In this document: positions 33,887 through 59,848 of the stretch, piece after piece
Position numbering within the stretch: position 1 is the first letter of the stretch
How the letters are laid out: every line of letters starts with the position of its first letter
Assembly: GCA_018268955.1 (NCBI GenBank)
Contig: JAFDVO010000001.1
Span: forward strand, 1-64,000
Length of the DNA: 64,000 bases
Origin: Acidobacteriota bacterium
GTDB taxonomy: Bacteria; Acidobacteriota; Vicinamibacteria; Vicinamibacterales; CAVVIG01
Direction: 5' to 3'
Notes under the pieces: model-generated
What the model was told of the DNA's origin: nothing
Seen by the model: only the letters and a program-made list of their open reading frames with translations
Databases searched by the model: none
Made by a program: the position numbers and the translations under genes

Positions 33887-36589
33887 CTACGGCTTCGGCT
33901 TGGGCTTGTGCTCCACCCGTTCGATCTTCCACGGGTCCCGCTGCGTGGCGCGGCTCGCGATCATCGTGACGTTCGTCTCGACGGTCTGCGGTGCGCCGCC
34001 GCTCTTCATCTGGATGACCTGCTTCATGTCGAATAGCACCCGCGCGGTGCCCCCGCCGCCTGATGCGCTGATGGCGAGGTTGTCGAACTTCGGCTTCTCG
34101 GTCGTGATCGAGCAGTTCAGCCGCTGGTACTGGCGGAACTGATCGCGCAGCTGCCGCTGCGGCAGCTGGAAGTGCGCGGAGACGCGATCCGGATTCAGCG
34201 ATTCGAGATCGCTGCAGTAGTCCTTGATGAGCTGCTCGATCTCCTGACGGGCGTGCTCCTCCGGCGAGATCGCAGGCGCGACGTTCTTGGCGTCCTGTGT
34301 TGGAATCGGGGCCGCAGGCGCGGGCTCTGGCGCCGCGGCTGGCGCCTGTGGCGCCGCTGGCGCGGCCACCGGCGGCGGAGGCGGAGGCGCCACATTCACC
34401 GGGCTGCCGCTCGTCCGGCGTCCGCCGCCCGACGGAGGCGGGGCGACGGGCGCATCGACCTTCGCGGACGCACCTGTCGGGGCGAAGGTCGCGCCACACG
34501 AGCGCGCGGCCGTCATGGTGGTCTCGCCGTTCGGCGCGCAGTCGCCCGTGTAGGTGACGAGGGCGAACCCACTGTCCGGCTCCACGTGCAGCGTCACCGG
34601 CGCGCCGTCGGGCACGCTCGCGGTGCAGTTCGCACCGAGGCTGCCGCACAGCACGCCGCCCGCGGCGACGATGGTGCCGCCGGTCGGCTTCGTGATCGTG
34701 AGCGGCCAGTTGACACCCGGGCTCGCGGACGCGCCGATCTGCTGGAAGGTCGCCCCGCACGTCTTCGCGGAGGTCATCAGCATGCGGCCCGTCGGCGCGC
34801 AGTCGCCCGTGAACGATGTGAAGACGTAGCCCGCGTCGGCGACCGCCTGGAACTCGACCGAATCGCCGTCCTTGAAACGGCTCGAGCAGTTGCTGCCGCG
34901 CGTGCCGCACTCGAGGCCTCCGCCAACGATGGTGCCGCCGGTCGGCTTCGTGAGCGTCACCGTCTGGCCAGAGGCCCAGAGGCTGCTGCCGAAGTGGATG
35001 CCCGCGTAGACGAGGGCGCCAACGAGCACGAACGCCGCGAGGGCCATCAGCACCACGGGCGAGACAGGCAGTTCACGTCGGGATGTCGCGGCAGCGGCGC
35101 CGGCGGTCGACGATGGCTTTCGCCCGAAGAGCCCCTGCAGTCCAGCGAGCATGCCGCCAGCGGGCTTCTTGGACGATGGTCGCACGTCAGCAGATGACGC
35201 GGCCGACGCCGGAGGTGGCGGCGCTGCGGGCGTGGGCGACAGAGGCGGGAGATCGGCCGCGGAGATGGCGACCGTTTCCTCACCGCGCGAGGGACCGAAG
35301 CCAGGCAGCTGATCGCGGCGCAGGATCACCGTCTGCTCGATCGGCGCCTGAGGCTGGGCTGACGGCCCTTTCGGCACCGCAATCAGCACCGTCGGATCGA
35401 GCGAGCCGCCCCCCTGCCCTGCGTGACCGAACGATGATGGCGAAGAGCCTGCTCCCCCATCCCAGAACGACCCTGCCTGCGGCGCAGGTTTCGCTGCCGC
35501 CGAGCGCGATGCCGGCGCGGGTTGGCCGGACTGATCGAGGCGCGTCAACAACGCGCGCGCGCCCGTGTGTGCCGGATCTTCCGCCAGCGCTTCGAGCGCG
35601 CATCGCCGTGCGAGCTCGGTCGCCTGCTCCTTGAACGCGGCCACCGCACGAACGTAGGCGGAACCAGCACGCACTGTGGCCGGCGCGTTCGGCGCCGCCG
35701 CGCTCCCCCCGGCACGGCTCGGACCCGACTGTGCGCCAGCAGGATCGAGCCGCGCACGGCAACGCTCGAACGCCTGCGCGAGGATGCCGACATCCTTGTA
35801 GCGGTCATTTGGGTCGCGCGAGAGTGCCGTGCGGACAATGCCGTCGATCTCCACGTCGAGCCCGGGCACGCGGGTCGTGAGCGGCAGCGGCTGCGCACGC
35901 AGCACGCTCGCCTCGAGTTCTCGCGCAGTCGCACCGGTGAAGGCCGGGACGCCGGCGAAGAGCTCGTAGGCAACGGCGCCGACCGCGAAGACGTCCGAGC
36001 GGACGTCGATTCCCTGCCCCTGCGTCTGCTCGGGAGACATATACCCGAGGGTGCCGACCTGCGCGGGGGCGGCGCTCTCCAGCGGGTTGACCATCCGCGT
36101 CCGGTTGCTGCCCGAGACGCGCGCGATCCCGAAGTCCAGGATCTTCAGGTGGTCGTCCTGATCCACCATCAGGTTCGCCGGCTTGACGTCCCGATGGATG
36201 ATGCCGGACTGGTGTGCGTGTGCCAGGCCGCTGCAGAGCTCGACGAGCAGCCGGAGCTTCTGCGGCACCGACAGCTGCGCACGGCGACGGATCTTCTCTT
36301 CCAGCGTCTCGCCGCGCACGAACTCCATCACGATGAACGGCGAGCCCTGATGGTCGCCGTAGTCGTCGATGTGAACGATGTTCGGATGATTCAGCGAGGC
36401 GAGCGAGCGCGCTTCCCTGTCGAACCGGTCGCGCTGAGCCGAATCGAGCGTCCCGTCCATGAGCTTGAGGACGACGAGCCGGCCCGTGTTCGGGTCGCGC
36501 GCAAGGTACAGCCGGCCCATGCCGCCGCGGGCGAGCAGGCCGTGCAGTTCGTAGCGACCGATTCTGTCAGGACCGTTCTCTGGGAGCAT
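33887..36589 (-). CDS. Transmembrane Ser/Thr protein kinase with Cys-rich repeat ectodomain
   Basis: A 900-residue protein. Residues 10-270 are a complete Hanks-type kinase: GLLARGGMGRLYLA, VVLKLMDG (Lys), IIHRDVKPANLM (about 133), LDFGIAR and VGTLGYMSPEQ. A Pro/Ala-rich linker leads to one membrane segment (about 515-535). Outside are two tandem 75-residue repeats (TVTLTKPTGGTIV to TCGATF, and LTITKPTGGTIV to SCGATF), each with four conserved Cys, like bacterial InlB B-type repeats. A basic C-terminal domain (about 775-900) follows. I start at the ATG at 36589; a TTG 12 bases up is possible. It could be the PpkA-type kinase for the adjacent T6SS or control the downstream sugar genes. Confidence 0.9.
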   Translation of the reverse strand: MLPENGPDRIGRYELHGLLARGGMGRLYLARDPNTGRLVVLKLMDGTLDSAQRDRFDREARSLASLNHPNIVHIDDYGDHQGSPFIVMEFVRGETLEEKIRRRAQLSVPQKLRLLVELCSGLAHAHQSGIIHRDVKPANLMVDQDDHLKILDFGIARVSGSNRTRMVNPLESAAPAQVGTLGYMSPEQTQGQGIDVRSDVFAVGAVAYELFAGVPAFTGATARELEASVLRAQPLPLTTRVPGLDVEIDGIVRTALSRDPNDRYKDVGILAQAFERCRARLDPAGAQSGPSRAGGSAAAPNAPATVRAGSAYVRAVAAFKEQATELARRCALEALAEDPAHTGARALLTRLDQSGQPAPASRSAAAKPAPQAGSFWDGGAGSSPSSFGHAGQGGGSLDPTVLIAVPKGPSAQPQAPIEQTVILRRDQLPGFGPSRGEETVAISAADLPPLSPTPAAPPPPASAASSADVRPSSKKPAGGMLAGLQGLFGRKPSSTAGAAAATSRRELPVSPVVLMALAAFVLVGALVYAGIHFGSSLWASGQTVTLTKPTGGTIVGGGLECGTRGSNCSSRFKDGDSVEFQAVADAGYVFTSFTGDCAPTGRMLMTSAKTCGATFQQIGASASPGVNWPLTITKPTGGTIVAAGGVLCGSLGANCTASVPDGAPVTLHVEPDSGFALVTYTGDCAPNGETTMTAARSCGATFAPTGASAKVDAPVAPPPSGGGRRTSGSPVNVAPPPPPPVAAPAAPQAPAAAPEPAPAAPIPTQDAKNVAPAISPEEHARQEIEQLIKDYCSDLESLNPDRVSAHFQLPQRQLRDQFRQYQRLNCSITTEKPKFDNLAISASGGGGTARVLFDMKQVIQMKSGGAPQTVETNVTMIASRATQRDPWKIERVEHKPKPKP

Positions 36590-36685
36590 GGACCCACGCA
36601 AGGGTGTCGGCGCAGGGATCCGCGCCCTGCGCGGCAGGAGCGGTGAGCCTCTGGTCGAGACATGGTATCGCGACGATGACGAAGC

Positions 36686-37015: not shown

Positions 37016-38602
37016 TCAGATGAGTTCCTTCGGCGGAGCCGAGATGGAGTGCAGTGCGACAAGGCGGACGGCGTTGCGGTTCTTGTAGCTCACCACTGGC
37101 ATGAGGCCTCGCCCCTGGATGCTGACGACCGCTTCCTCGGTCGGTGCGATCTCGGCGACCGGCTGCAGCTTCGGCTCGTCGTCGTCCCGCCAGGTGAACG
37201 CAGGCAGCCCCTCGAACCCCGCCACGTCGAGCCCCTCCGCATCGTCCCCCAGCGCGCGCATGGCGACGACGCCGCACAGGTAGGCCGGATTGCCCCAGAG
37301 AAACCACTCGTGGTGCGGGGGCGTCGTCTGCTCCTCGAACCCGAACGCCCCGATGCGGTCGCTCTTCGTTCCGTAGGGCAGGCGGAGCAGGACGCGCGGC
37401 AGCGCAAGACCGACCCGATCAGCAGCCTGGCTCGAGCGCAGCGCCGTCCATTTCGTCTCGAGAGCCGGGTCGACCTGCCACTCCCGCGGGTGGGGCGAGT
37501 CGGCCATGCTCCGGCTGCCGACGAGCGCGGGCGACGCGCTGGCGACGAACGGCGCATCCAGTGCGTTGGCGAGCGCGCCGAGCGTGGCGAGCCCCGCGAG
37601 ATCGGCATCTGTTCCGCCGACAGTCGCGTCACACACCACGCACGCGTAGCCGCCGTCGGCGCCGGCCTGCCGCTCCCGCTCGAGCAGGCGCCTCCACAGC
37701 GCGCTATCCGGGCGCGACTCCGCGAGCAGTTCGTCACGCGTGACGTGCAGCAGCTGAAGCTGCTGCGTCTCGTCGAGTTCGAGGGTGGAGACCAGCCACT
37801 GGATCGATCGCCATGTGGCTTCGGTCCGCTGGAACGCCGGATCGTGGAGCACCGCTCGCATCAGGTGGGTCATTGCGGCATCGACCGCAGCGAGCATCTG
37901 CGGCAGCTGCGGACTTGGGGCCTCGACGATGTGGGGTGCGATGGCCTGGCGGATGAGGGCGTCCACCGTGCCGGAGACCGTGGCCGGAGCCGTGGCTGGC
38001 AGCTCACCCGTCGCGGCCGTCCTGCCAAGGAGCCGCTCCAGCGTCGCCGCGGAACTCTCGGGCGCAGAGAGCTGTGGCGCCGACCCGGTCGCGGCCGGGA
38101 CTCCGAGCGTGCCGCCGTGAAGCTCGGCGACCGCGGCGGCGAAGGTCGAGGGCTGCTTCAGGCGAGCGCGGATGTCGCGCAGCCGTGCAAACGCGGGCAC
38201 GTGCTCGATGAGGCGGTCCGGGTGGAAGTCGTCGAACGTGCGGATCTCGATCCGCACGTTGCCGGCGTCGGGCCCGAGCTGCACGACCGGCGCACAGCGG
38301 GCGAGCACGGCGTCCACGTTGTCGAGGTCGACCTTGACGATCGGTCGGTCGAGCAGGTCGGCCGGCCCCGCGGTCCCGCTCCCGCGCAGATCCGCAAGAA
38401 CGAGCAGGCGGCGGACGCCATTCGGCCTGCGGCGCGGATGTTCATGACCAGAAGGACCAAGCGTGAATTCGAAGCGCATAGGGTACTGAGGCCACAAGGT
38501 GTGCGGACGGACCGGCGCGGTGCGCGGCGCCAGGTGCGGCTCATGGTGCCACCCGCGCGAGAACCCGTCAATCGCAGCGCGGGCCGGGGTCTCATTCAAC
38601 AT
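37016..38602 (-). CDS. Fused TssB-TssC-like T6SS sheath paralogue
   Basis: A 528-residue protein. Residues about 40-165 match TssB: RRLLVLADLRG, DRPIVKVDLDNVDAVLARCAP and RIEIRTFDDFHPDRL align with VLADLSG, DRKFLDIDVDNFDSRMKAMKP and ELTFESMDDFSPAAV of the canonical TssB here. An Ala/Pro linker (about 165-240) contains ATLERLLG. Residues about 245-528 match TssC: TWRSIQWLVSTLELDE, LALPRVLLRLPYG, GAFGFEE and FLWGNPAYLCG. It stops near MPVVSYKNRNAV, lacking the last roughly 90 residues of TssC. The start ATG at 38602 follows GGAGGTG closely; the TTG at codon 2 is an alternative. It may be an alternate sheath, cap or adaptor subunit. Confidence 0.85.
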   Translation of the reverse strand: MLNETPARAAIDGFSRGWHHEPHLAPRTAPVRPHTLWPQYPMRFEFTLGPSGHEHPRRRPNGVRRLLVLADLRGSGTAGPADLLDRPIVKVDLDNVDAVLARCAPVVQLGPDAGNVRIEIRTFDDFHPDRLIEHVPAFARLRDIRARLKQPSTFAAAVAELHGGTLGVPAATGSAPQLSAPESSAATLERLLGRTAATGELPATAPATVSGTVDALIRQAIAPHIVEAPSPQLPQMLAAVDAAMTHLMRAVLHDPAFQRTEATWRSIQWLVSTLELDETQQLQLLHVTRDELLAESRPDSALWRRLLERERQAGADGGYACVVCDATVGGTDADLAGLATLGALANALDAPFVASASPALVGSRSMADSPHPREWQVDPALETKWTALRSSQAADRVGLALPRVLLRLPYGTKSDRIGAFGFEEQTTPPHHEWFLWGNPAYLCGVVAMRALGDDAEGLDVAGFEGLPAFTWRDDDEPKLQPVAEIAPTEEAVVSIQGRGLMPVVSYKNRNAVRLVALHSISAPPKELI

Positions 38603-38745: not shown

Positions 38746-39279
38746 ATGCCCACCGAACAGCACGACGTCACACCCCGCGCGGCGGCACGCACGGCACTGA
38801 CCGACGTGACCACCGGCGCGGTCATGACGGCGATTGTGGACGACATCTCGCCCGACGGCGTCGCACGCATCGTCGTCTCCGGTGAACAGCACCCCCGCAC
38901 CGCCGCCTCCGCGCTGACCTACTCAACGGCTGCCGAGGCATCGGCTGCGCTCCTCGGCCAACTCGTCGTCGTTGTCTTCGCCGCTCCAGACATGCCCGTG
39001 ATCGTCGGTCCTGTGCGTCGTCGGCTCTGGGAGGCGCGTGAGCGCGACACAGGCGACACCGACGTGCGCGGAACGTTGCCCACGGATCAGCCAGTGGCCG
39101 TCGAGGTGGACCGGCAGCGGCGGATCGAACTCGAGGCGGCCGACGAGATCCGGCTGACCTGCGGCAAGAGCGCGCTGGTCATGCGGCGCGACGGCACGGT
39201 CATCGTGCGTGGCGTGAAGATCGTGAGCCGTGCAAGCGAGACGAACCGCATCATGGGCGGCACCGTCGGGATCAACTGA
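38746..39279 (+). CDS. DUF6484-like T6SS-associated protein
   Basis: A 177-residue soluble protein starting at ATG 38746 (GGAGAGGA about 7 bases upstream). The N-terminal beta part has AIVDDISPDGVARIVVSG and VVVVFAAPDMPVIVGPVRRRL; the C-terminal part (VEVDRQRRIELEAADEIRLTCGKSALVMRRDGTVIVRGV) resembles the beta-helical tail of VgrG spikes. This family is found beside PAAR-like DUF4150 and DUF2169 genes in T6SS loci and may cap or extend the spike. It leads a four-gene plus-strand operon. Confidence 0.75.
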   Translation: MPTEQHDVTPRAAARTALTDVTTGAVMTAIVDDISPDGVARIVVSGEQHPRTAASALTYSTAAEASAALLGQLVVVVFAAPDMPVIVGPVRRRLWEARERDTGDTDVRGTLPTDQPVAVEVDRQRRIELEAADEIRLTCGKSALVMRRDGTVIVRGVKIVSRASETNRIMGGTVGIN

Positions 39280-39294
39280 GGCGCACAGCGAATC

Positions 39295-39753
39295 ATGCCG
39301 GTCACCGTCGGCGTCAACTTCATGTCGGTCGTCCACGCGTCGAGCAACGGCGTGACGATCGCGTTTCCGGACGTCTGCAAGACACCGACGCCGGGCGGAC
39401 CTGTCCCGATTCCCTATCCGAACGTCGCGAAGTCGTCCGACACCGCGAGCGGCACCACCAAGGTGAAATGCGACGGCAACCCGGTCTGCGTGAAGGACTC
39501 GAACTTCAGCATGAGCACCGGCGACGAGGCTGGCAGTGCCGGAGGCGGCGTCGCGTCGAACAAGATCAAGGGCAAGGCGGAGTTCGTGCTGTTCTCGATG
39601 GACGTGAAGTTCGAGGGCAAGAATGTGTGCCGCGCGATGGACATCATGCTGCACAACGACAAGAACACGCCGCCGTTCCCGGTGATGCAGGGGCCGGCTG
39701 TGGCGATCGACATGCCCAAGAAGACATGCATCCTCTGCGACAAGCCGCTCTAG
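39295..39753 (+). CDS. DUF4150 PAAR-like spike-tip protein
   Basis: A 152-residue protein with PAAR-like features: PDVCKTPTPGGPVPIPYPNVAKSSD, KVKCDGNPVCVKDSNFS, and Cys-rich ends (KTCILCDKPL). PAAR proteins sharpen the VgrG tip and carry effectors. No toxin domain is attached, so effectors must bind separately, perhaps through the DUF2169 protein encoded next. Confidence 0.88.
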   Translation: MPVTVGVNFMSVVHASSNGVTIAFPDVCKTPTPGGPVPIPYPNVAKSSDTASGTTKVKCDGNPVCVKDSNFSMSTGDEAGSAGGGVASNKIKGKAEFVLFSMDVKFEGKNVCRAMDIMLHNDKNTPPFPVMQGPAVAIDMPKKTCILCDKPL

Positions 39754-39793: not shown

Positions 39794-40816
39794 GTGGCCC
39801 ATCCTGACGTCGACAACCGTACGCCGTTTGCCTTTGCACCGCTGTTCCTGACCGACGAGGAGGCACGCCCGGTCGTCGTCGGACTGGTCAAGGCCACGTT
39901 CGACTTCGACAGTGCCGGAACCGTCCGGCGGTCGCCGCAGCAGGATCCGGTCAACCTCGCGGGTACACCGGCGACCGATGCTCCGGTCCCGAGCATGCGC
40001 TTCGAGCCTGAGGCCGTTCCCTGCAAGCTCGCGACTGATGTCGTCCTGGTCGGGCACGCCGCCCCGCCAGGTGGCGGCGCGACACAGGTGGACGTCGGCA
40101 TCAAGGTGGGGCCCGTGCGCAAGCTGGCGCGGGTCTTCGGCACGCGGTTCTGGGTCTGGACTCCACAGGGCGTCATCCTCACTCGCACAGCTGCCCTCGC
40201 AGAACCGGTGCCGCTGACGTGGGAGAACGCATTCGGCGGTCTGGACGTGATCAATTCCACTCCGGACCGCATGCTGATGGAGGTGCGAAACCCGGTGGGC
40301 ACTGGCTTCGGCAAGCCTCTCCGCGCCGATGGCGACCGGCTGCGTCTGCCGAACATCGAGGATCCGACCAACCTCATACAGGCGTACGGCACTGCCGTTC
40401 CGCCGTGCGGGTTCGGGTTCACGTCTCCCAATTGGCAGCCGCGGGCAGCGTTCGGCGGCACATACGACGAGCAGTGGACGGCCACGCGCAAGCCGCTGCT
40501 GCCGCTCGATTTCGACCGTCGGTTCTTCAGCGCGGCCGCTCCCGGCCTCGTCGCGCCAGGCTTCCTCCGTGGCGATGAGGACGTGGTCATCCTGAACACA
40601 ACAGCCGGGGCCCGGGTGGATTTCGCGCTGCCACGCGTGCCGCCGCCGCTCGTTCGCGTCGTTCTGAGAGGTGGACGTGATGGTGTCCTGCGATCCGCGC
40701 TCGACACGGTCGTCGTGGACGCCGACCGGCAGAAGGTAGTGCTTCTGTGGCGGACGGCTTCGGTGCCGGGATCGCCCCATGATGTCACTGCACTGGCTGT
40801 CGCCGCGGAGATGTGA
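39794..40816 (+). CDS. DUF2169 T6SS adaptor/chaperone
   Basis: A 340-residue soluble protein starting at GTG. Family features: NRTPFAFAPLFLTDEEARPVVVGLVKATF, KLATDVVLVGHA, PLTWENAFGG, NPVGTGF and WQPRAAFGGTYDEQW. DUF2169 proteins are accessory factors for loading effectors on VgrG/PAAR. Its stop overlaps the next start (GTGA), so the pair is coupled. Confidence 0.87.
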   Translation: MAHPDVDNRTPFAFAPLFLTDEEARPVVVGLVKATFDFDSAGTVRRSPQQDPVNLAGTPATDAPVPSMRFEPEAVPCKLATDVVLVGHAAPPGGGATQVDVGIKVGPVRKLARVFGTRFWVWTPQGVILTRTAALAEPVPLTWENAFGGLDVINSTPDRMLMEVRNPVGTGFGKPLRADGDRLRLPNIEDPTNLIQAYGTAVPPCGFGFTSPNWQPRAAFGGTYDEQWTATRKPLLPLDFDRRFFSAAAPGLVAPGFLRGDEDVVILNTTAGARVDFALPRVPPPLVRVVLRGGRDGVLRSALDTVVVDADRQKVVLLWRTASVPGSPHDVTALAVAAEM

Positions 40817-42616: not shown

Positions 42617-43384
42617 CTAGGGTGTCGGGCACGGGTAACTGGCCGGGCGTCGTGCGAGCGATGGACAGAACAGGTATTCGGCCTCGGTCCTGATTCCTCT
42701 CATTGTCGCAAGCCGGAGCAGCGCCAGGCCCTCGATCGAGACGTGTCGCTGCGCCAGCACGTACACGTCTTCCAGCTGCCCGTTCGCGATCTTCTTCTGG
42801 ATGCGAACCTCGACGTCCGTGAGGAACACGTCGAATGCCTCGTCGAATCCACGCTCGCTGCGCTCGACGAGCGCCTGACAGACGGCCAGGCGGGGATTCG
42901 CGTCTGCAGCGAATGCCTCGAACCTGGCGAGCAGCGGTGGAAACTCGTCTTCGGGCACCGTTTCGCGACAGAGCCTGAAGAGGATCTGCGCGTAGCAGTA
43001 GTCGTCTTCGTACTCGTGCGGCGGACGGAAGTCGCCAGGGCTGAGCGCCTCGATGTCGCTCACCAGCGGCAGGTCCCCAGCCGCAATCGCATCGAGCAGC
43101 GGCTCGTAGCGGCCGGACACGCGGTGATGCGTATGCTCGATGCCCGCGGCCGTAAGACGCGAGAGATACATGCGTCTGACGCGGGCCGCTCGCGTGCAGC
43201 TGTGCACGAAACCGTCCGTGCTCCCCTTGCCGAGCAGCGCGAGGATGGCAAGCGTCCGCAACTTGGAGGAGACCTCGAGGCTCAGGCTCCCGACCTGCTC
43301 GATCGGAGACCCCTCGACGCCGATCCACCAGAAGGCGGCGTCGAGCGCCACACCCGAAATCTCATCGGACCACGTCATAGCCAT
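42617..43384 (-). CDS. Imm49-like immunity protein candidate
   Basis: A 255-residue helical soluble protein. VSGRYEPLLDAIAAGDLPL, LSPGDFRPPHEYEDDYCYAQILF and DANPRLAVCQALVERSERGFDEAF resemble the Imm49 immunity family, which protects against toxins delivered by contact-dependent systems. The ATG at 43384 is used; a second ATG lies 6 bases on. No cognate toxin is obvious unless it is the AHH gene upstream, so it may be an acquired orphan. Confidence 0.65.
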   Translation of the reverse strand: MAMTWSDEISGVALDAAFWWIGVEGSPIEQVGSLSLEVSSKLRTLAILALLGKGSTDGFVHSCTRAARVRRMYLSRLTAAGIEHTHHRVSGRYEPLLDAIAAGDLPLVSDIEALSPGDFRPPHEYEDDYCYAQILFRLCRETVPEDEFPPLLARFEAFAADANPRLAVCQALVERSERGFDEAFDVFLTDVEVRIQKKIANGQLEDVYVLAQRHVSIEGLALLRLATMRGIRTEAEYLFCPSLARRPASYPCPTP

Positions 43385-43432
43385 GGAAGCAGAAACCAGC
43401 GCCACCGCGCGGCGGGGACGCCGCGGCTCGCG

Positions 43433-44026
43433 TTATTCACCGCTCGAGGCCACCGCCCTGAACTTCATGTTGGTGAAACCCGCAGCCTTGAGCGCCTCGG
43501 CAAGTTCGGCACGGACGATCGGCGTCTCCGCGAAATACCTGGGGAAGAACAGCTCTCGATCCTGTGGGACGCGGCTGGAATCGATCGTGAGTTCGTTCAG
43601 ATCGAGGATGCGCTGCGTCGCAAGCCCCTGGTTCGCCCAGGTGACGCCGGAAGCCGCCACGTCGATGCAGTCGACGTGGTCCGTCAGGTGGGCAATGGAG
43701 TACTCGCCGCTGGCCACGTTGCCCTTGTGATCGAGGATATCGAGCGGCAGAAATTCGATATGTCCCACTGCGCGCTGCTGAAGGAATGCGCGGACCCTCG
43801 GTGACACGATCAGCAGTGAATCCGTGTTCCGCACGTTGTCGGGCAGCACCGTGTTCGTCGGTTCGTCTTCGTGCATGGCCATCGTGATGCGGCCGGGAGG
43901 ATTCTCGCGGAGTGAGGCTCCCTGACCGACCGCCCAGAGGTCGTCGATACCCTGGAGGTGATCGACCTTGCAGTACCCGTGTGGATTGCTGGGTGGATAG
44001 CTCAGTTTGAAGAATTGACTGCTCAT
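43433..44026 (-). CDS. Imm11-like (DUF1629-type) immunity protein
   Basis: A 197-residue protein. SLLIVSPRVRAFLQQRAVGHIEFLPLDILDHKG, DHVDCIDVAASG, RELFFPRYFAETPIV and LAEALKAAGFTNMKFRAV follow the Imm11 family layout. It begins 7 bases after the AHH-type nuclease stop, so it is the probable cognate antitoxin, working in the cytoplasm. Confidence 0.78.
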   Translation of the reverse strand: MSSQFFKLSYPPSNPHGYCKVDHLQGIDDLWAVGQGASLRENPPGRITMAMHEDEPTNTVLPDNVRNTDSLLIVSPRVRAFLQQRAVGHIEFLPLDILDHKGNVASGEYSIAHLTDHVDCIDVAASGVTWANQGLATQRILDLNELTIDSSRVPQDRELFFPRYFAETPIVRAELAEALKAAGFTNMKFRAVASSGE

Positions 44027-44033
44027 AGTCTCC

Positions 44034-44771
44034 CTAGGTCCGTGCGGCGAAGGCCTCGAAGGCCTCCTGCAGATCCTTCAGTTTCTTCGACAGGCCAGAC
44101 TTGAGTCCCACGCGGGGGAACGGCCTCGGGTCCGGGTCATCCGCCATCGAGAACGGGACGTACCACTCCTCAGCCGAGGCGGCATCCGGATCCTTCATCG
44201 CGTTCACGAACTCGCCATGCGTCCCCTTGCCGCGCTTGCCTCTCGACGCCAGCTTCGGATTGCAGGCGTCGCGCAAGCTGTCCAGGGCGCCTTTCAGCTC
44301 CTTGGTCGCGTCCTCATGGGCCTTGGTATTCGCCTGTGCATCGTTGCCGATCTTCTTCAGCTTTGCGTCGACTTCGTCCTGGAACGCGCCGTGATCGTAG
44401 TTGTGCATCGGCAGGCCCTCGAAGGGCGGCGCGCTGTCCTCTTCGTTGATGATGTAGTGCAGAAAGGTCATCTCGAACAGGGGCAGGGCGATCATGTTCG
44501 CCTTGTCATTGACGCACCACTGCGTGTTCTTGACGACCTCGTCCTTGATCTTGCTGTTGGCGGTGATTTCGGCGGTCACGGACGCGACGGGCAGCACGTG
44601 GTGGGCCTCCGGCGACCGCTCGACGGCCTTCAGCACACGGTGCTTCTGGGGGTACTTCCCCCAGCTTCCCGTCCCGCTCATGATGTCCGTGTACTTGTTG
44701 CCGCACGGGCACGGTTCCACTCGCAGTGAGCAGAACTTGCCGCGTTCCGCGCCTTCAGTGTGTCCTGCCAT
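44034..44771 (-). CDS. AHH/HNH-like nuclease effector candidate
   Basis: A 245-residue protein. A Cys-rich N-terminus (CSLRVEPCPCGNKY) precedes SPEAHHVLPVASVT (about 55-68), which matches the A-H-H nuclease motif. WCVNDKANMIALPLFEM and LPMHNYDHGAFQDEV supply the further Asn and His residues expected of the HNH fold. The rest is a charged helical tail. Downstream of vgrG and directly upstream of an Imm11-like gene, it is a likely T6SS DNA-degrading effector. There is no secretion signal or spike domain, so it would travel as cargo. Confidence 0.72.
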   Translation of the reverse strand: MAGHTEGAERGKFCSLRVEPCPCGNKYTDIMSGTGSWGKYPQKHRVLKAVERSPEAHHVLPVASVTAEITANSKIKDEVVKNTQWCVNDKANMIALPLFEMTFLHYIINEEDSAPPFEGLPMHNYDHGAFQDEVDAKLKKIGNDAQANTKAHEDATKELKGALDSLRDACNPKLASRGKRGKGTHGEFVNAMKDPDAASAEEWYVPFSMADDPDPRPFPRVGLKSGLSKKLKDLQEAFEAFAART

Positions 44772-46078: not shown

Positions 46079-48346
46079 CTAGTTCTGGGCGATCTTGCTG
46101 CCCTTCATGATCAGGTCGCCCGACGCCTTCGCGTTGATCTTGCCGCTCCCCTCGATCGTGATGTCCTTGCCCTTGATCGTGATGGTGCCGTCCTTCTTCA
46201 GGACGATGCTGGCATCGCCGCTGGTGAACATGATCGAGTCGTTCGCCGTCACGATGAACTTCTTCTCGATCGTGAGCTTGTCATCCTTCGCGACGTCCGT
46301 CGTTCGACCGCCCTGCACGTTGTGAGCCTCGTCCTTGGCGACCGTCACGGACAGGCCGGCGCCGATGGACAGCGACTGCCCGCCGCCAACGGTGACGGAC
46401 CGATTGCCGCCGACATTCGTGGACTGGTTCCCACCAATGCTGTTGCTCTGCATGGCGCCGACCGTGGTGCTCTGGACACCACCGACCGCGACCTCCTGCG
46501 CGCCGCCAACGGTAATGGTCTCGTTCGCGCCGACACTGTGCGTGCGCTGAATGGACACGCTTTTTGTCTCGCTCTGGCTCACCAGCACGCTGCGATTCTG
46601 GACCACCGTGACCGACTCGTTCTTCAGGACCTTCTCGGTCCTGTTGCCGTCGATGGTGACCGCCTCGTTCTTCTGAACGTGTTCGGCCCGGTTGCCCTTG
46701 ATCAGGATCGTCTCGTCGTTGTCGACCGTCTCCGTCCGATCATGCTTGACGTGCGTCGTCTCGTCGTGGTCGATCGTCTTCTTCCGATCGTGCCCGACCC
46801 AGTGCGTCTCGTCGTTCTCGACCTCGATGTCCTGGTTCTTCTCGGCATGGATGAAGAGCTGCTCGCTCCCCGCCTTGTCCTCGAACCGGATCTCGTTGAA
46901 GTTCGCCGGCCCGCCACCCATCGAGCTGCGCGACTTGACGCCTGACTGCGTCTTGTTCGCCGGCAGGTCGTACGGCGGCATCTGCTCGGCGTTGTAGACG
47001 CGGCCGGTCACGATCGGCTGGTCGGGATCGCCCTCGAGGAAGTCGACGATCACCTCCTGCTCGATGCGCGGCAGCGAGATCGCGCCCCAGTTCTTCCCCG
47101 CCCACGGCGACGACACGCGCAGCCAGCACGAGCTCTTGTCGTTCTTCTGGCCGAGGCGATCCCAGTGGAACTGCACCTTCACGCGGCCGTACTTGTCCGT
47201 GAAGATCTCCTCGCCCGCGGGCCCCACCACCACCGCGGTCTGCGGTCCCTGGACGAACGGCTTCGGCGTCAGCCGTGCCGGACGGAACTGCTGTGCCTTC
47301 GGCATCGCCACGAAGGCACAGGTCCACTTGATGCCTTCGCCCCTCGGCAGCCCCTCGTAGTCCTCGAACGTCAGGTCGTAGTCGGTCCGCAGCAGCAGGT
47401 ACTCCGCGTTCTGATCGTCGCGGGGATGCGACTTGAGCGTGAAGAGCGCGCCGGTCTTCAGCCCCCGCGCGTTCGACGTGCCGCGCGCCAGCTCGAACTG
47501 CGCCCCGAGTTCGTCGATCCGCACGTGCGCGTACTGCTCGCCGTCCGGCTTCTGCACGTACAGGCCGGGATAGTCGAACACCTCGTAATCGCTCGGCGTG
47601 TAGGTCCGCTGCAGCGTCTTGCTGGTCTTCAGGTTGACGCTCGGCCGCTCGAAGTCGTAGTCCGTGTGCACGTACGCACCGGGCTGAATCGCCCGCTCGG
47701 AGTCCCAGGTGCTGACGTGCTCCTGCCCCGAACGCAGCTGCTCGCGCGGATCCCAGAACGGGAGGGACGGACAGTCGGGATCCTCCTCGTGCTTGCTGGT
47801 GGAGTCGGTGAGCACCAGCGTGTGGTGCCCCTCGGTGTGACGGAAGTAGTAGCCGATGCCCTCTTCCTCGAGCAGCCGGCTCACGAAGTTGAAGTCGCTC
47901 TCGCGGTACTGCACGCAGTACGTGCGGGTTCGGTACGACCCGGTCAGTTCCCAGGCGACCTCCGCCGTCGTGTGGTCATCGAAGACCTTCTTGACGATGT
48001 CCTTGACCGTGAGGTCCTGGAAGATGCGGCAGTCGCGCGTCCGGGTCAGGAACCACAGCCACGGCGAGACCGTCGCAGTGTACTGGTAGTACCGCCCGTA
48101 GCGCCCCCGCAGCGAGAACCGCCGCACGAACCCGTTGAAGTAGCGCGCCGACCCTCCCCCCTGCAGCAGGAGCGTCACGGTCAGATTCTTCCCGAGCACC
48201 TGGTCGGCGTCGACGTTCGGCTCCTCGCCGAGGAGCACCAGCTCGTACTCGAACAGCCGGCTCATCTCCTCACGCGTCGTCATCTTCTGGAAGAGGAGAT
48301 CGTCGGCACCCAGACCCTGGATGGCGACTTTCATCTGAGGGGCCAT
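46079..48346 (-). CDS. vgrG: VgrG spike protein (TssI)
   Basis: A 755-residue trimeric spike at the tip of the T6SS tube. The gp27-like base is at residues 1-380 (EYELVLLGEEPNVD, YRESDFNFVSRLLEEEGIGYYF), the gp5 OB domain at about 390-480 (KYGRVKVQFHWDR, SCWLRVSSPWAGKNWG, GDPDQPIVTGRVYN), then a long beta-helix. Residues about 510-590 follow a 16-residue period and about 600-655 an 8-residue period (TVGGAQEV, AVGGVQST, TVGAMQSN, SIGGNQST). It ends with DGTITIKGKDITIEG, without an effector domain. AGGAG lies 4 bases before the ATG. Confidence 0.95.
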   Translation of the reverse strand: MAPQMKVAIQGLGADDLLFQKMTTREEMSRLFEYELVLLGEEPNVDADQVLGKNLTVTLLLQGGGSARYFNGFVRRFSLRGRYGRYYQYTATVSPWLWFLTRTRDCRIFQDLTVKDIVKKVFDDHTTAEVAWELTGSYRTRTYCVQYRESDFNFVSRLLEEEGIGYYFRHTEGHHTLVLTDSTSKHEEDPDCPSLPFWDPREQLRSGQEHVSTWDSERAIQPGAYVHTDYDFERPSVNLKTSKTLQRTYTPSDYEVFDYPGLYVQKPDGEQYAHVRIDELGAQFELARGTSNARGLKTGALFTLKSHPRDDQNAEYLLLRTDYDLTFEDYEGLPRGEGIKWTCAFVAMPKAQQFRPARLTPKPFVQGPQTAVVVGPAGEEIFTDKYGRVKVQFHWDRLGQKNDKSSCWLRVSSPWAGKNWGAISLPRIEQEVIVDFLEGDPDQPIVTGRVYNAEQMPPYDLPANKTQSGVKSRSSMGGGPANFNEIRFEDKAGSEQLFIHAEKNQDIEVENDETHWVGHDRKKTIDHDETTHVKHDRTETVDNDETILIKGNRAEHVQKNEAVTIDGNRTEKVLKNESVTVVQNRSVLVSQSETKSVSIQRTHSVGANETITVGGAQEVAVGGVQSTTVGAMQSNSIGGNQSTNVGGNRSVTVGGGQSLSIGAGLSVTVAKDEAHNVQGGRTTDVAKDDKLTIEKKFIVTANDSIMFTSGDASIVLKKDGTITIKGKDITIEGSGKINAKASGDLIMKGSKIAQN

Positions 48347-49774: not shown

Positions 49775-52510
49775 TCAGGAGAACTGATACGAGAACTGCC
49801 CGTTCTCCACGCCAAGGTGGATCCGGTCGAGCGAACCGCCGTTCATGGTCCGGATCAAGTACTCCTCGCTGATGGCCGGCAGGACGGTATTGGTCAGGAT
49901 CGCATCGATCATGCGACCCCCGCTTTCCACCTCGGTGCACCGGCTGACGATCAGCTTCACCGCATCCTCGTCGTACGTGAACGGGATGCGGTGGTGCTCC
50001 GCCACGCGCTTCTTGATGCGTCCGAGCTGCAGGCGGACGATGTTGCCGAGCATCTCGTCGCTGAGCGGGTAGTACGGAATGACCACGAGCCGCCCGAGCA
50101 GGGCCGGCGGGAACACCTTCAGCAGCGGATCGCGAAGCGCCTTGGCAATCGCGTCGGGCTCCGGCACGAGCTCCGGATCCTTGCACATGCCGGCGATCAG
50201 GTCGGTGCCGACGTTCGACGTGAGCAGGATGATCGTGTTCTTGAAGTCGATGTAGCGCCCTTCGGCATCCTCCATCCATCCCTTGTCGAACACCTGGAAG
50301 AACAGTTCGTGCACGTCCGGATGCGCCTTCTCGACCTCGTCGAGCAGCACGATGCTGTACGGCCGCCGCCGCACGGCCTCGGTGAGGATGCCCCCCTCAC
50401 CGTAGCCGACATATCCGGGCGGGGACCCCTTGAGCGTGGAGACGGTGTGCTTCTCCTGGAACTCGCTCATGTTGATCGTGATGACATTCTGCTCGCCACC
50501 GTAGAGCACTTCGGCGAGCGCGAGCGCCGTCTCCGTCTTGCCAACGCCCGACGGCCCGCACAGCATGAAGACGCCGATCGGCTTGTTCGGGTTGTCGAGC
50601 TTCGCACGGGACGTGTGGATGCGGCGCGCGATCATGTCGAGGGCATGCCGCTGGCCGATGACACGCTTGTTCAGCGTGTCGGCCAGGTTCAGCACGGTCT
50701 CGATCTCGTTCTTGACCATGCGGCCGACCGGCACGCCGGTCCAGTCCTCGACGACCGCTGCCACGGCCTGCTCGTCGACGCTCGGCAGGATCAACGGTGA
50801 GTCCCCCTGCACGGTCGCGAGCTGCTGCTGCAGCGCCGCGAGCTCCGCGAGCAGCGCGGCACGATCGATCGGCGTCGCGTTCGCGGCGTCGCTCGTGGTC
50901 GCAGCCGGCGCCGGCGCGGAAGCGACACCCGCGGCAGCCGGTTCGGCATGGCTGACCGGCGCCACCGAGTCGCGCAACGCGGCGCGAATCTCCAGGATCC
51001 GATCGGCCAGCGTCTTCTCGCTCTCCCACCGCGCTTCGAGCTCGGTACGCCGCTGCTGTGCGGCGGCGAGCTTCTGCTCGGCGTGCGCGCGGCGTTCCGC
51101 CGCGTTCACCCCCACCGCTTCCTCGCGGGCGATGATCCCGAGCTCGGTATCGAGCATCTCAATCGTTCGACGGCAGTCCTCGAGCGCGGGCGGCACCGAA
51201 TGCTGGCTGATGGCGACGCGCGCGCAGACCGTGTCGAGCAGGCTGACCGCCTTGTCAGGCAGCTGCCTCGCCGGGATGTAGCGGTGCGACAGGCGGACCG
51301 CCGCTTCGAGCGCCTCGTCCAGCAGCATCACGCGGTGGTGCTTCTCGAGCACGGATGCGACACCACGCACCATCTGCACCGCCTTGTCCTCGTTCGGCTC
51401 GGCGACCTGCACGACCTGGAAACGCCGCGTCAGCGCGGGATCCTTCTCGATGTACTTCTTGTATTCCGCCCACGTCGTCGCCGCGATGGTGCGCAGCGTG
51501 CCACGCGCGAGCGCGGGCTTCAACAGGTTGGCCGCATCGCCGGTGCCGGCGGCTCCCCCGGCGCCGATCAGCGTGTGCGCCTCGTCGACGAAGAGGATGA
51601 TCGGCTTGGGCGAGGACTGCACCTCCTCGATCACCTGCCGCAACCGGTTCTCGAACTCCCCCTTCATGCTCGCGCCGGCCTGGAGCAGGCCGATGTCGAG
51701 CACGTACAGATCCACGCCCTTGAGCGGGGGCGGCACGTCGCCTGCCGCGATGCGGGCCGCGAAGCCCTCGACCACCGCGGTCTTGCCGACGCCCGCTTCA
51801 CCGGTGAGAATCGGGTTGTTCTGGCGGCGCCGCATCAGGATGTCGACGATCTGCCGGATCTCCTCGTCCCGGCCGGTCACCGGATCGAGCTTGCCGCTCT
51901 TCGCACGTTCCGTCAGGTTCGTCGCGTAGCGCTTGAGCGCCTCCTGCTTGCCCATCTGCGCAGGAGCCATGGCGCCACTGGCCTCGCCCGGCGCGGCCGC
52001 CGTGCTGGAACCGTCCGTCGCACTGAGCGCGTCCTCCGGGGATCCGCTGACGATCTTCGTGAACTCGTCGGTCAGCGTGTCCACCTTGATCGCGTCGAAA
52101 TGCTTGGAGATCGCCATCAGCGCGTTGCGGAGCGACGGCGTCTTCAGCATCCCGACGACGAGATACCCTGTGCGCACCTGCGAGTCGCCGAACATCAGCG
52201 TGGCGTACACCCACCCGCGCTCCACGGCGCTCTCGACGTGCGTCGACAGGTCCGAGATGGACGTGGCGCCGCGCGGCAGCCGATCCATCGCCTCGGTGAT
52301 GTCCTTGGCCAGACGCGAGGGGTCGACCTCGAAACGGCGGACGATCCGGTGCATGTCGGAGTCTGGCGATTGCAGGATCTGCGCGACCCAGTGCACCAGC
52401 TCCACATACGGATTGCCCCGCAGCTTGCAGAGCACCGTCGCGCCTTCAATTGCCTTGTAGGCGACGCCATTGAGCTTCCCGAACAACGCAGAACGGCTGA
52501 TCTCAGTCAT
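49775..52510 (-). CDS. clpV: ClpV AAA+ ATPase (TssH)
   Basis: A 911-residue double-AAA+ unfoldase that recycles contracted sheath. An N-domain (residues 1-160) is followed by Walker A GEAGVGKTAVVEG (about 238) with Walker B ILFVDEAHTLIG, a coiled middle domain (about 450-560), an Ala/Pro-rich insert (APAATTSDAANATP region) and the second Walker A GPSGVGKTETAL (about 650) with VLLDEVEKAHPDV. Length is slightly above the family norm because of the insert. Its ATG overlaps the tssG stop (ATGA). Confidence 0.95.
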   Translation of the reverse strand: MTEISRSALFGKLNGVAYKAIEGATVLCKLRGNPYVELVHWVAQILQSPDSDMHRIVRRFEVDPSRLAKDITEAMDRLPRGATSISDLSTHVESAVERGWVYATLMFGDSQVRTGYLVVGMLKTPSLRNALMAISKHFDAIKVDTLTDEFTKIVSGSPEDALSATDGSSTAAAPGEASGAMAPAQMGKQEALKRYATNLTERAKSGKLDPVTGRDEEIRQIVDILMRRRQNNPILTGEAGVGKTAVVEGFAARIAAGDVPPPLKGVDLYVLDIGLLQAGASMKGEFENRLRQVIEEVQSSPKPIILFVDEAHTLIGAGGAAGTGDAANLLKPALARGTLRTIAATTWAEYKKYIEKDPALTRRFQVVQVAEPNEDKAVQMVRGVASVLEKHHRVMLLDEALEAAVRLSHRYIPARQLPDKAVSLLDTVCARVAISQHSVPPALEDCRRTIEMLDTELGIIAREEAVGVNAAERRAHAEQKLAAAQQRRTELEARWESEKTLADRILEIRAALRDSVAPVSHAEPAAAGVASAPAPAATTSDAANATPIDRAALLAELAALQQQLATVQGDSPLILPSVDEQAVAAVVEDWTGVPVGRMVKNEIETVLNLADTLNKRVIGQRHALDMIARRIHTSRAKLDNPNKPIGVFMLCGPSGVGKTETALALAEVLYGGEQNVITINMSEFQEKHTVSTLKGSPPGYVGYGEGGILTEAVRRRPYSIVLLDEVEKAHPDVHELFFQVFDKGWMEDAEGRYIDFKNTIILLTSNVGTDLIAGMCKDPELVPEPDAIAKALRDPLLKVFPPALLGRLVVIPYYPLSDEMLGNIVRLQLGRIKKRVAEHHRIPFTYDEDAVKLIVSRCTEVESGGRMIDAILTNTVLPAISEEYLIRTMNGGSLDRIHLGVENGQFSYQFS

Positions 52511-55412: not shown

Positions 55413-55930
55413 TACACCGCCCGGCCCGCGTTCAGGTCCGCCAGCGCCACGTGCCCGGTCTCGAGATCGATTTCGGTGCGTACGAGCAGTTCCATCGGAA
55501 CCGGCTCCGCCCACAGTTGCCCGGAGATTTGGATGCCAATGACGTTGTGCTGATTGTGGTCCGCGACCTCGACCGCCCGCACGCGCAGTGAATCGGCTAG
55601 AATCCTCGGCTCGAATTCGATGATGGCTTCGCGGATGCCGCGCTCCAGATCGGTGATCTCGATCGAGGATGCGGTGCGGCCCGAGAGCGCGGGCAAGCCG
55701 TAGTTGATCACCGAGCGGCGGGCATACGGGACGGACCCAAGTTCGTCCTTGCGCTCGAGCCTGGCCGTGTTGAGCAGCCATGCGAGATCCCGCAGAACGG
55801 CCGCCCGGAGCTCGCGCTTGTTCATCACACGGGCTTCACGCGGTTCGATCCTGGTGCCGGGGTCATCGTCCGTGAGCCGGTCGAGCAGCGCTGGCTGCAG
55901 GAGGTCCTGGGGGGCGCGCGGTTCAGGCAT
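55412..55930 (-). CDS. tssE: T6SS baseplate protein TssE (gp25-like)
   Basis: A 172-residue lysozyme-like gp25 homologue of the baseplate. LQPALLDRLTDDDPG opens it, followed by LRAAVLRDLAWLLNT and the gp25 core IEITDLERGIREAIIEFEPRI. I use the ATG at 55930, which gives the normal N-terminus; an internal ATG at MNKRELR would drop it. It overlaps tagJ by 8 bases. Confidence 0.93.
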   Translation of the reverse strand: MPEPRAPQDLLQPALLDRLTDDDPGTRIEPREARVMNKRELRAAVLRDLAWLLNTARLERKDELGSVPYARRSVINYGLPALSGRTASSIEITDLERGIREAIIEFEPRILADSLRVRAVEVADHNQHNVIGIQISGQLWAEPVPMELLVRTEIDLETGHVALADLNAGRAV

Positions 55931-56762
55931 CGGCCGCACCGGCCGCGTCCGCGGCGGCGGCACTCTCGCCGATGGTGATGCTGCGGACCTCGAGGATCGG
56001 GTGGTCGCCCGCGTCGGTTGCCAGCATGCGCTGCCCGAGCCCGCTGAACGCCCCTTCGGCGAACTCGGTCCACTCGGTCTTGCGGGCGAGCGCCACGAGG
56101 CCATCTCCAGACGACTCGGAGCCGGGGTAGCGGGTCGGGATCAGCGCCAGCGTGTCGCCGCCGTTCGCGAACTCGAGGTGCGCGGGCATCCAGACCAGAT
56201 CCCGCAGGTCCTCAGGGGCATCTATCGCAATCGTGCTCAGGCGGGCGAAGGGCACCCAGTAGTAGCGCCCGTTGATCATCGCCTCGAGGACCGGGCCCAG
56301 CCGGCTATCGGCATCGGCGATCCACTCGAACGGCTGCCCGTCGATCTGCCCGAACGATACGGGCGCCTCTTCGAAGGCGCGCCCGCGGAGTTCTTCGGCC
56401 TGCGCCGCCTCCCCGCGTCCGGCACGCAGCCGCGACTCGATCAGCAGCGCGAGCCACTGGTCCGGCTCGCCGAGGATCATCGGGGACTTGCGCCCCTCGA
56501 ACACCTCGCGGCGGACAGCTTCGCACCGGACCGCCTCGCCGTACATCTGCGCCATCGGGATGGCGGTGGCGTCCATCTCGGCCGCCAGCTTCATCTGGTT
56601 CAGCGCGCGCTCCCACTGCCCGAGGACGCAGAGCAACTGCGCGAGAAACACGCGCAGCTTCATGTTCCCCGGGTTCGCCCGCACGTCGTCCTGAAGCCGC
56701 TTGAGCGCGGCCTGCGGATCGCCCTCACGGAGCAACTGTTCGGCGGCAGCGGAGAGTGTCAT
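55923..56762 (-). CDS. tagJ: T6SS accessory protein TagJ (ImpE/SciE)
   Basis: A 279-residue protein of the ImpE family. The N-terminal half has TPR-like helices (LLREGDPQAALKRLQDDVRANPGN, RVFLAQLLCVLGQWERALNQ). The C-terminal half has RYYWVPFARLSTI, DLVWMPAHLEFANGGDTLALIPTRYPGSE. TagJ binds TssB and modulates sheath recycling. The start overlaps the hcp stop. Confidence 0.92.
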   Translation of the reverse strand: MTLSAAAEQLLREGDPQAALKRLQDDVRANPGNMKLRVFLAQLLCVLGQWERALNQMKLAAEMDATAIPMAQMYGEAVRCEAVRREVFEGRKSPMILGEPDQWLALLIESRLRAGRGEAAQAEELRGRAFEEAPVSFGQIDGQPFEWIADADSRLGPVLEAMINGRYYWVPFARLSTIAIDAPEDLRDLVWMPAHLEFANGGDTLALIPTRYPGSESSGDGLVALARKTEWTEFAEGAFSGLGQRMLATDAGDHPILEVRSITIGESAAAADAAGAADA

Positions 56763-57818: not shown

Positions 57819-59315
57819 CTAGGCGCCCTTCCCAGACGGCAGCTTCGACACGAGGCTGAGCGACACAGTCAGCCCTTCGAGCTGGTAGTGAGGCCGCAGG
57901 GAGAATTTCGCAGAATAGTAGCCGGGATTCCCTTCGATCTCGGACACGGTCACCTCGGCGCCAGCCAGTGGCTTGGACGCTTTGGTGGCCTCCGACGAGT
58001 GCGCCGGGTCACCGTCGACGTAGTTGATGATCCAGTCCTGCAGCCAGGCCTGCATGTCGCTGCGCTCCTTGAACGAGCCGATTTTGTCGCGGACGATGCA
58101 CTTCAGGTAGTGCGCGAAGCGGCAGGTGGCGAACAGGTACGGCAGGCGCGCAGCCAGGTTCGCATTTGCCGTGGCATCGGGATCGTCGTACTGCGCCGGC
58201 TTCTGCAGCGACTGCGCGCCGATGAACGCGGCGAAGTCCGAGTTCTTGCGATGCAACAGCGGCATGAACCCGTTCTTCGCGAGCTCCGCCTCGCGGCGAT
58301 CACTGATCGCCACCTCGGTCGGGCACTTCATGTCCACGCCGCCGTCGTCAGTCGGGAACGTGTGGACCGGCAGCCCCTCGACCGCGCCACCCGATTCGAC
58401 GCCGCGGATGGCCGTGCACCAGCCGTAGGTCTTGAAGGAGCGCGTGATGTTCGTCGCCATGGCGTAGGCGGAGTTCGCCCAGGTATAGCGGCTGTGATCC
58501 GCCGCGCCCGTATCTTCCTCGAACGCGAACTCCTCGACGGGCGCGGTCTTCGCACCGTAGGGCAGCCGCGCCAGGAACCGGGGCATCGTCAGGCCGATGT
58601 AGCGGGAGTCCTCGGATTCACGGAGGGATCGCCACGCGGCGTACTCCGGTGTCTCGAAAATCTTCGTCAGGTCGCGCGGGTTCGCGAGTTCCTGCCAGCT
58701 CTCCATCTGCATGACGGTCGGGGAGGCGGCGGCGAGGAAGGGCGCGTGCGCGGCGGCGGCGATTTGCGCCATCTCACCGAGCAGTTCCACGTCGGGCGCA
58801 GTCTGGTCGAAGTAGTAGTCGCCAACCAGGCAGCCGAACGGCTGGCCGCCGAACTGGCCGTACTCGGCTTCGTAGATCTTCTTGAAGAGCGGACTCTGGT
58901 CCCACGCGGTGCCCTTGTAGCGCTTGAGCGTCTTGCCGAGATCCGCCTTGCTGATGTTCATGACGCGGATCTTGAGCATCTCGTCGGTCTCGGTGTTGTT
59001 GACGAGATAGTGCAGCCCGCGCCAGGCGCCTTCGAGCTTCTGGAAGTCCGCGTGGTGCAGGATGACGTTGATCTGCTCAGTGAGCTTGGTGTCGATCTGC
59101 GCGATCATCGCCTCGATCGACTTGATCACGTCGCTGCCGATGAGCGCGGTCTGCGAGAGCGCCTGTTCCGCGAGCGTGCGGACTGCCTTCTCGACCGCCT
59201 CCTTGGCCTCATCGGTCTTCGGCTTGAACTCCTTGCGGAGCAGGGCGTCGAAATCGGTCGCTTCGGCGGCACCGGCGGCCGGCGCCGCCTGCTGCTGCGT
59301 GTTCTGATCTGCCAT
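57819..59315 (-). CDS. tssC: T6SS sheath large subunit TssC (VipB)
   Basis: A 498-residue canonical sheath protein. An N-terminal helix region (DFDALLRKEFKPK) is of the kind ClpV binds. The core has LEGAWRGLHYLVNNTETDEM, LTMPRFLARLPYG, FAFEED and WANSAYAMATNI. The C-terminus VSEIEGNPGYYSAKFSLRPHYQLEGLTVSLSL is the sheath-handshake region. It follows tssB by 23 bases. Confidence 0.96.
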   Translation of the reverse strand: MADQNTQQQAAPAAGAAEATDFDALLRKEFKPKTDEAKEAVEKAVRTLAEQALSQTALIGSDVIKSIEAMIAQIDTKLTEQINVILHHADFQKLEGAWRGLHYLVNNTETDEMLKIRVMNISKADLGKTLKRYKGTAWDQSPLFKKIYEAEYGQFGGQPFGCLVGDYYFDQTAPDVELLGEMAQIAAAAHAPFLAAASPTVMQMESWQELANPRDLTKIFETPEYAAWRSLRESEDSRYIGLTMPRFLARLPYGAKTAPVEEFAFEEDTGAADHSRYTWANSAYAMATNITRSFKTYGWCTAIRGVESGGAVEGLPVHTFPTDDGGVDMKCPTEVAISDRREAELAKNGFMPLLHRKNSDFAAFIGAQSLQKPAQYDDPDATANANLAARLPYLFATCRFAHYLKCIVRDKIGSFKERSDMQAWLQDWIINYVDGDPAHSSEATKASKPLAGAEVTVSEIEGNPGYYSAKFSLRPHYQLEGLTVSLSLVSKLPSGKGA

Positions 59316-59338: not shown

Positions 59339-59848
59339 TTACGCCGACTCACCCTGCGGCTTCTTCGAGGCCGCGAGCGTCTGCAGCAGCGTGGGATCCT
59401 GCAGCAGCTTCTGCACGAGGTCCTCGGCGCCGCTCTTGCCGTCCATGTAGGTGATCAGGTTGGCCAGCTGCTGACGCGCCTCGAGCAGTTTGTTGAGCGC
59501 GTCCACCTTGCGCGCCACCGCGGCGGGCGAGAAGTCGTCCATGCTCTCAAAGGTGAGCTCGACGTTCATGTTGCCCTCACCCGTCAGGGTGTTCGGCACC
59601 TGGAACGCGACGCGCGGCTTCATCGCCTTCATGCGGCTGTCGAAGTTGTCGACGTCGATGTCCAGGAACTTGCGATCGGCAACGGGGGCCAAGGGCTCAG
59701 CCGGCTTGCCCGAGAGGTCGGCGAGCACGCCCATGACGAAGGGGAGCTGCACCTTCTTCTCCGCGCCGTACAGCTCCACGTCGTACTCGATCTGCACGCG
59801 CGGTGCGCGGTTGCGTGCAATGAATTTCTGACTGCTTGCCTTCGCCAC
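59339..59848 (-). CDS. tssB: T6SS sheath small subunit TssB (VipA)
   Basis: A 169-residue protein with RVQIEYDVELYGAEKKVQLPF, VLADLSG, FLDIDVDNFDSRMKAMKPRV and ELTFESMDDFSPAAVARKV. It pairs with TssC to build the contractile sheath. It follows tssA by 34 bases. Confidence 0.96.
   Translation of the reverse strand: MAKASSQKFIARNRAPRVQIEYDVELYGAEKKVQLPFVMGVLADLSGKPAEPLAPVADRKFLDIDVDNFDSRMKAMKPRVAFQVPNTLTGEGNMNVELTFESMDDFSPAAVARKVDALNKLLEARQQLANLITYMDGKSGAEDLVQKLLQDPTLLQTLAASKKPQGESA

Follow-up and report, generated by a model that had tools for sequence, protein, structure and literature searches.

A truncated TssB-TssC fusion without the handshake domain accompanies the canonical T6SS sheath in TagJ-type systems

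The window analysed here comprises the first 64,000 nucleotides of an Acidobacteriota contig (JAFDVO010000001.1), and it contains a single open reading frame on the minus strand (37016..38602) that joins a TssB-like segment to the N-terminal sheath domain of TssC. Complete copies of tssB (59339..59848, minus strand, full PF05591) and tssC (57819..59315, minus strand, PF05943 and PF18945, N-terminus DFDALLRKEFKPK) lie in the same window. A first-pass annotation had proposed such a natural, truncated fusion beside a canonical pair, and the matches between fusion and canonical proteins on which it drew are present (VLADLRG/VLADLSG, TWRSIQWLVSTLELDE/AWRGLHYLVNNTETDE and RVLLRLPYG/RFLARLPYG). Both domains score above the curated Pfam cut-offs: VipA with E 2.8e-11 over residues 66-150 (38153..38407, PF05591, profile 30-122 of 155), and the VipB N-terminal domain with E 1.2e-44 over residues 235-520 (37043..37900, PF05943, profile 2-300 of 301). 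Between them, on the same strand, lies the linker motif ATLERLLG (38024..38047). The reading frame stops upstream of the gpW/gp25-like VipB_2 handshake domain, and no Pfam match to that domain (PF18945) was found in it. The C-terminal truncation noticed at first is thus real, but it amounts to about 120 residues, the whole of VipB_2 (TssC residues 381-492 of 498), rather than about 90. The first 15 or so residues of TssB (SSQKFIARNRAP) are also missing, and the protein falls below the cut-offs of the NCBI equivalog models both for TssC/VipB (TIGR03355, 153.5 bits against 271.5) and for TssB/VipA (TIGR03358, 39.6 bits against 97.25). Its true start is uncertain from the sequence: ATG 38602, which a strong Shine-Dalgarno-like GGAGG precedes by two bases, gives 528 aa, and ATG 38479 (MRFEFTLG), at the MRF(D/E)F motif with which homologues begin, gives 487 aa.

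The remaining T6SS genes form a cluster at 42-64 kb, where the complete tssB and tssC are accompanied by two hcp genes, tssF, tssG, tssA, tagF and a tssM cut by the window end, together with, all on the minus strand, tagJ/impE (55923..56762), tssE (55502..55813), clpV (tssH, 49775..52510) and vgrG (46079..48346). The apparent gap between tagJ and tssF had raised the idea that the fusion substitutes for TssE, which is ruled out by the tssE gene found there with its gp25-like domain. With Arg6 and Asp87 in the N-domain of its ClpV, a TagJ, and a TssC without LLDEII, the system fits the ClpV1/TagJ class, of which P. aeruginosa ClpV1 is the type. A TPR-methyltransferase gene (48389-49762) sits between clpV and vgrG, as it does in several other carriers of the fusion, and is joined to DUF4123 at one locus (L054). 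Downstream of vgrG, an AHH-nuclease-like gene (44034-44771) adjoins immunity-like Imm11 (43433-44026) and Imm49 (42617-43405) genes, and these are likely an antibacterial effector with its immunity genes.

Divergent from the fusion gene, on the plus strand, lie a DUF6484-like gene (38746..39279), which is a TvpC candidate despite its weak Pfam match (E 0.014), a PAAR-like gene (39295..39753, PF13665) and a gene for a DUF2169 protein, a TvpA-type PAAR chaperone by its family role (39794..40816; PMC13373197). Of the components of a Tvp class II module, PAAR-like and DUF2169 proteins are clear in the window, and DUF6484 is weak in the window but clear in another Vicinamibacterales genome, G029 (Pfam E 9e-10); the only counterpart of TvpD is a weak ketoacyl-synthase-like match at 44802-45968. 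The window and G029 share a gene order in which DUF6484 diverges from the fusion, which is followed by kinase, radical SAM, glycosyltransferase (GT2) and carbamoyltransferase genes, and two further Vicinamibacterales genomes have the divergent DUF6484-PAAR start in common with them. In the window the kinase, directly downstream of the fusion (33887-36601), is a Ser/Thr kinase with InlB-like repeats. The neighbours are DUF6484, PAAR and DUF2169 genes in Vicinamibacteria, but they differ elsewhere: Competibacter has VgrG-DUF4123, roseobacters and several Acidobacteriota have vgrG, and in Eleftheria the gene lies near tssK. Many copies are orphans far from T6SS genes (L049, L053, L056, L058, L086-L092), and those of Rubrivivax, Panacagrimonas and one acidobacterial family stand alone among housekeeping genes, the Rubrivivax copy lying between glutamine synthetase and EamA transporter genes. 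Because neighbours vary by lineage and many copies are orphans, the fusion is not defined by any single spike module, and the earlier suggestion that it adapts the sheath to a particular spike found no support.

An AlphaFold2 model built from a 16-row alignment (486 residues, the first of them residue 43 of the 528-aa reading frame; mean pLDDT 79, pTM 0.79) contains the TssB fold whose absence would have counted against a TssB-TssC fusion. Residues 17-486 superpose on the single-chain AFP, PVC and R-pyocin sheaths (Z about 14-16), the match ending before the C-terminal part of those proteins, and the model aligns with P. aeruginosa TssC (5n8n_B) over 319 residues (Z 29.7, rmsd 5.2). Residues 1-15 are of low confidence and, like residues 125-142 and 151-169, look disordered. 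In the TssB1C1 structure the handshake is formed by TssC strands 11, 12 and 13 with TssB strand 1, domain 2 by TssB strands 2-3 with strands of TssC, and domain 3 by one TssB helix and two TssC helices (PMC5807055). With strands assigned by alignment, the fusion appears to keep domains 2 and 3 and to have lost TssC strands 11-13, and a short alternating strand, RFEFTL, is retained at the site of TssB strand 1. Because strands 11-13 are lost, the protein should be able neither to accept nor to hand on a C-terminal handshake, and so, by alignment and model, it should not build a sheath lattice. The fusion thus shares domains 2 and 3 with canonical TssB/VipA and TssC/VipB, which are two chains with a complete handshake domain and which polymerise; with the eCIS and R-pyocin sheaths it shares a single chain and the same predicted fold, but these possess a handshake core at the C-terminus.

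Genome and plasmid searches recovered the same architecture in Acidobacteriota and in Alpha-, Beta- and Gammaproteobacteria, including Competibacter, Rubrivivax, Gallionellaceae, Panacagrimonas, Eleftheria and roseobacters. In a maximum-likelihood tree of the TssC-like domain, in which some rows are long-branched, the 36 fusion rows form one clade separated by a 100/100 branch from 29 canonical TssC proteins, and by this tree the domain has a single origin in the family, apart from canonical TssC. Together with the open frames, this clade rules out a chance or frameshifted tssB-tssC fusion. A second, different fusion in G029 (L040:1108-2703), a full TssB-TssC in one frame with no linker and a nearly complete VipB_2, falls outside the clade of handshake-less fusions. 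In a sample of 297 acidobacterial genomes, a sheath protein was matched at the chosen threshold in 45, of which 14 carry the fusion, whose distribution is patchy within genera. Canonical TssC is present in all 14, and each of 16 further carrier genomes has exactly one VipB_2-bearing TssC, so the coexistence with a canonical pair seen in the window is conserved. The possibility that the fusion is the sole or an alternative sheath is rejected on this ground: canonical TssC with PF18945 occurs in every carrier examined save the incomplete MAGs G183 and G156, and no reasonably complete carrier genome has the fusion as its only sheath. Since its relatives are kept beside a normal sheath in at least two phyla, the fusion is better regarded as a conserved accessory part than as a spare sheath. 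It is also tied to one group of T6SS, as had been guessed from the window: TagJ accompanies it in 14/14 acidobacterial carriers against 17/31 T6SS-positive non-carriers (one-sided Fisher 0.0016, kinship ignored), and in 15 of the 16 further genomes, the exception being a fragmentary MAG. A handshake-less single-chain sheath paralogue therefore accompanies the canonical sheath in TagJ-type systems.

The one useful account of a TssB-TssC fusion that I found in the open-licence literature, to which later work may have been added, is that of TssCL, described as two VipA domains and one VipB domain, restricted to roseobacters/Alphaproteobacteria and suggested to be a recent fusion (PMC9515649). Like the window protein, TssCL contains a TssB'-TssC' (B'C') module without PF18945, is found in P. 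aeruginosa H1-type T6SS clusters next to canonical tssB and tssC, and belongs to the same clade. It adds to this module an intact TssB, an acidic array with a period of about 21 residues and an acidic tail, reaching 1231-1658 aa from stop to stop, whereas the window fusion consists of the module alone, at about 490-530 aa. As ORF and Pfam analysis found no additional full-length N-terminal TssB in the window fusion, the latter is a compact variant of the family and differs from TssCL as published. The roseobacter plasmids have the module at the C-terminal end of a very long reading frame, of which the annotated gene starts part-way and omits TssB. Upstream of the annotated start the frame continues without a stop through a complete TssB, which has its own start (MADSSQKFIARNRAP), is in frame with the module and is 77-81% identical to the TssB of the same cluster. 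Between this TssB and the B'C' module, four loci (L063-L066) carry 13 to 41 copies of an acidic xLxxL element, spaced mostly at 20-22 residues (41 copies in L064 against 6 expected). These repeats exceed shuffled sequences only modestly as matches to the class A TssC motif, and I do not claim them as copies of it. On sequence grounds, roseobacter TssCL is a giant member of the same cross-phylum family. ImpD (TssC40) of Agrobacterium and Rhizobium is likewise an additional, divergent TssC-like protein, encoded together with canonical TssC in a TagJ-bearing cluster. Judged on the Rhizobium copies, however, it keeps PF18945 and has neither a TssB part nor the TssC N-terminus, and is thus truncated in the opposite way; this domain content rules out that the fusion is ImpD. 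A. tumefaciens requires ImpD for Hcp secretion, non-redundantly with canonical TssC (PMC3702570), so sheath paralogues of this kind can matter.

The linker offers a clue to function. Across 16 homologues it contains a conserved LLxRLLG-like element with a nearly invariant LLG; the window's fusion has ATLERLLG, which the first-pass annotation took for a possible mimic of a ClpV-binding helix. V. cholerae TssC docks into a groove of ClpV through its N-terminal motif LLDEIM, whereas in P. aeruginosa the groove of ClpV1 contains Arg6 and Asp87, and the cognate TssC, with EFASLL, can bind ClpV without its N-terminal helix (PMC4239648). The TssC of the window correspondingly has DFDALL. In 35 carrier genomes the fusion linker tracks the class of the genome's own TssC (AUC 0.97, kinship ignored): LLDAIL, LLGAIL or SLLDQIA with LLDEII/LLDKIL-type TssC, and LLxRLLG or FQxLIG in ClpV1-type systems with (D/E)FxxLL-type TssC. 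The motif is short, and that of the own class beat shuffled linkers at p<=0.05 in 17/35 genomes. Eight of the LLDEII-class carriers group as one clade and L061, L095 and L096 fall elsewhere in the tree, a scatter that would count against inheritance alone. That the motif changes with the ClpV/TssC class strengthens its likeness to the TssC N-terminal ClpV-recognition segment, although it could instead derive from the TssB C-terminal helix (GAEDLVQKLLQDP). The mimicry idea thus survives as a family-wide, class-tracking resemblance, but because the helix is not needed in ClpV1-type systems, a ClpV role in the window's system would rest on an undescribed docking mode.

What, then, might such a protein do? 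The best explanation, to which I would give slightly short of an even chance, is a non-polymerising mimic of the sheath protomer that would act on the canonical sheath and retain the surface facing ClpV. One chain would rebuild the middle and outer layers of the protomer (domains 2 and 3) together with the TssC N-terminal recognition segment, and as a surrogate for the ClpV-facing surface it would most likely tune the timing or the site of sheath engagement and recycling by ClpV together with TagJ, perhaps as a decoy, a recruiter or an edge marker. In roseobacters, the covalent tie to intact TssB would place the module on the sheath itself. Three points favour this reading: the linker motif changes in step with the ClpV class, the protein lacks precisely the domain for polymerisation yet retains the outer one, and in roseobacters the module is tethered to TssB. 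The main rival, which I consider rather unlikely, is a one-way cap or edge protomer. It would attach to the end of a sheath, growing or finished, by donating its N-terminal strand to an adjacent TssC and, having no handshake acceptor, would stop further addition, or, as a variant included in the same estimate, it would form a special ring at the baseplate. The handshake map (PMC5807055) implies such a one-way subunit, most non-roseobacter members have an amphipathic strand resembling TssB strand 1 (MRFEFTLG against RVQIEYDV), the ClpV1-type P. aeruginosa H1 system has a baseplate class C TssA and not a distal class A TssA (PMC6745524), and the roseobacter tether would suit a cap too. However, the strand falls in the low-confidence start of the model and is poorly kept in roseobacters, and with TssE present the baseplate end is already served.

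Two other readings are less probable still. A spike-side assembly factor, a temporary sheath mimic working with the Tvp module (DUF6484 TvpC, PAAR and DUF2169 TvpA) or with VgrG, has a precedent in TvpC, a temporary mimic of VgrG (PMC13373197), and would account for the divergent DUF6484 gene in four Vicinamibacterales and the vgrG adjacency described above; the many orphan copies with no spike gene near, and chaperone types that vary between lineages, make it quite improbable. I regard as very unlikely a domesticated remnant, a weakly constrained sheath relic that does nothing specific or acts only as a dominant negative. The longer branches of the fusion clade relative to canonical TssC, indicating faster evolution, and the patchy distribution within genera would fit a relic, but about 40 columns are invariant across 16 homologues from two phyla, and the open frames, the clean domain boundary and the linker motif are conserved in the family.

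Returning to ClpV/TagJ-related control, a broader proposition, plausible but slightly less likely, is that a dedicated protomer mimic, unable to polymerise and equipped with a class-matched copy of the TssC recognition segment, belongs to T6SSs in two or more phyla. It would control ClpV/TagJ-dependent recycling or termination of the sheath, and roseobacters would have wired it to TssB through an array of 21-residue period. The roseobacter fusion itself was already published, but the view of TssCL is revised, in that its B'C' module is cross-phylum and not a recent fusion confined to Alphaproteobacteria, and the family explains why databases list proteins of this kind as 'contractile sheath large subunit'. 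Finally, the stop signal for sheath growth and the trigger for its dismantling are an open question, chiefly in ClpV1/TagJ-type systems, where ClpV does not dock as it does in V. cholerae. A conserved protomer without its polymerisation domain would offer a direct handle on how these sheaths are terminated and dismantled.
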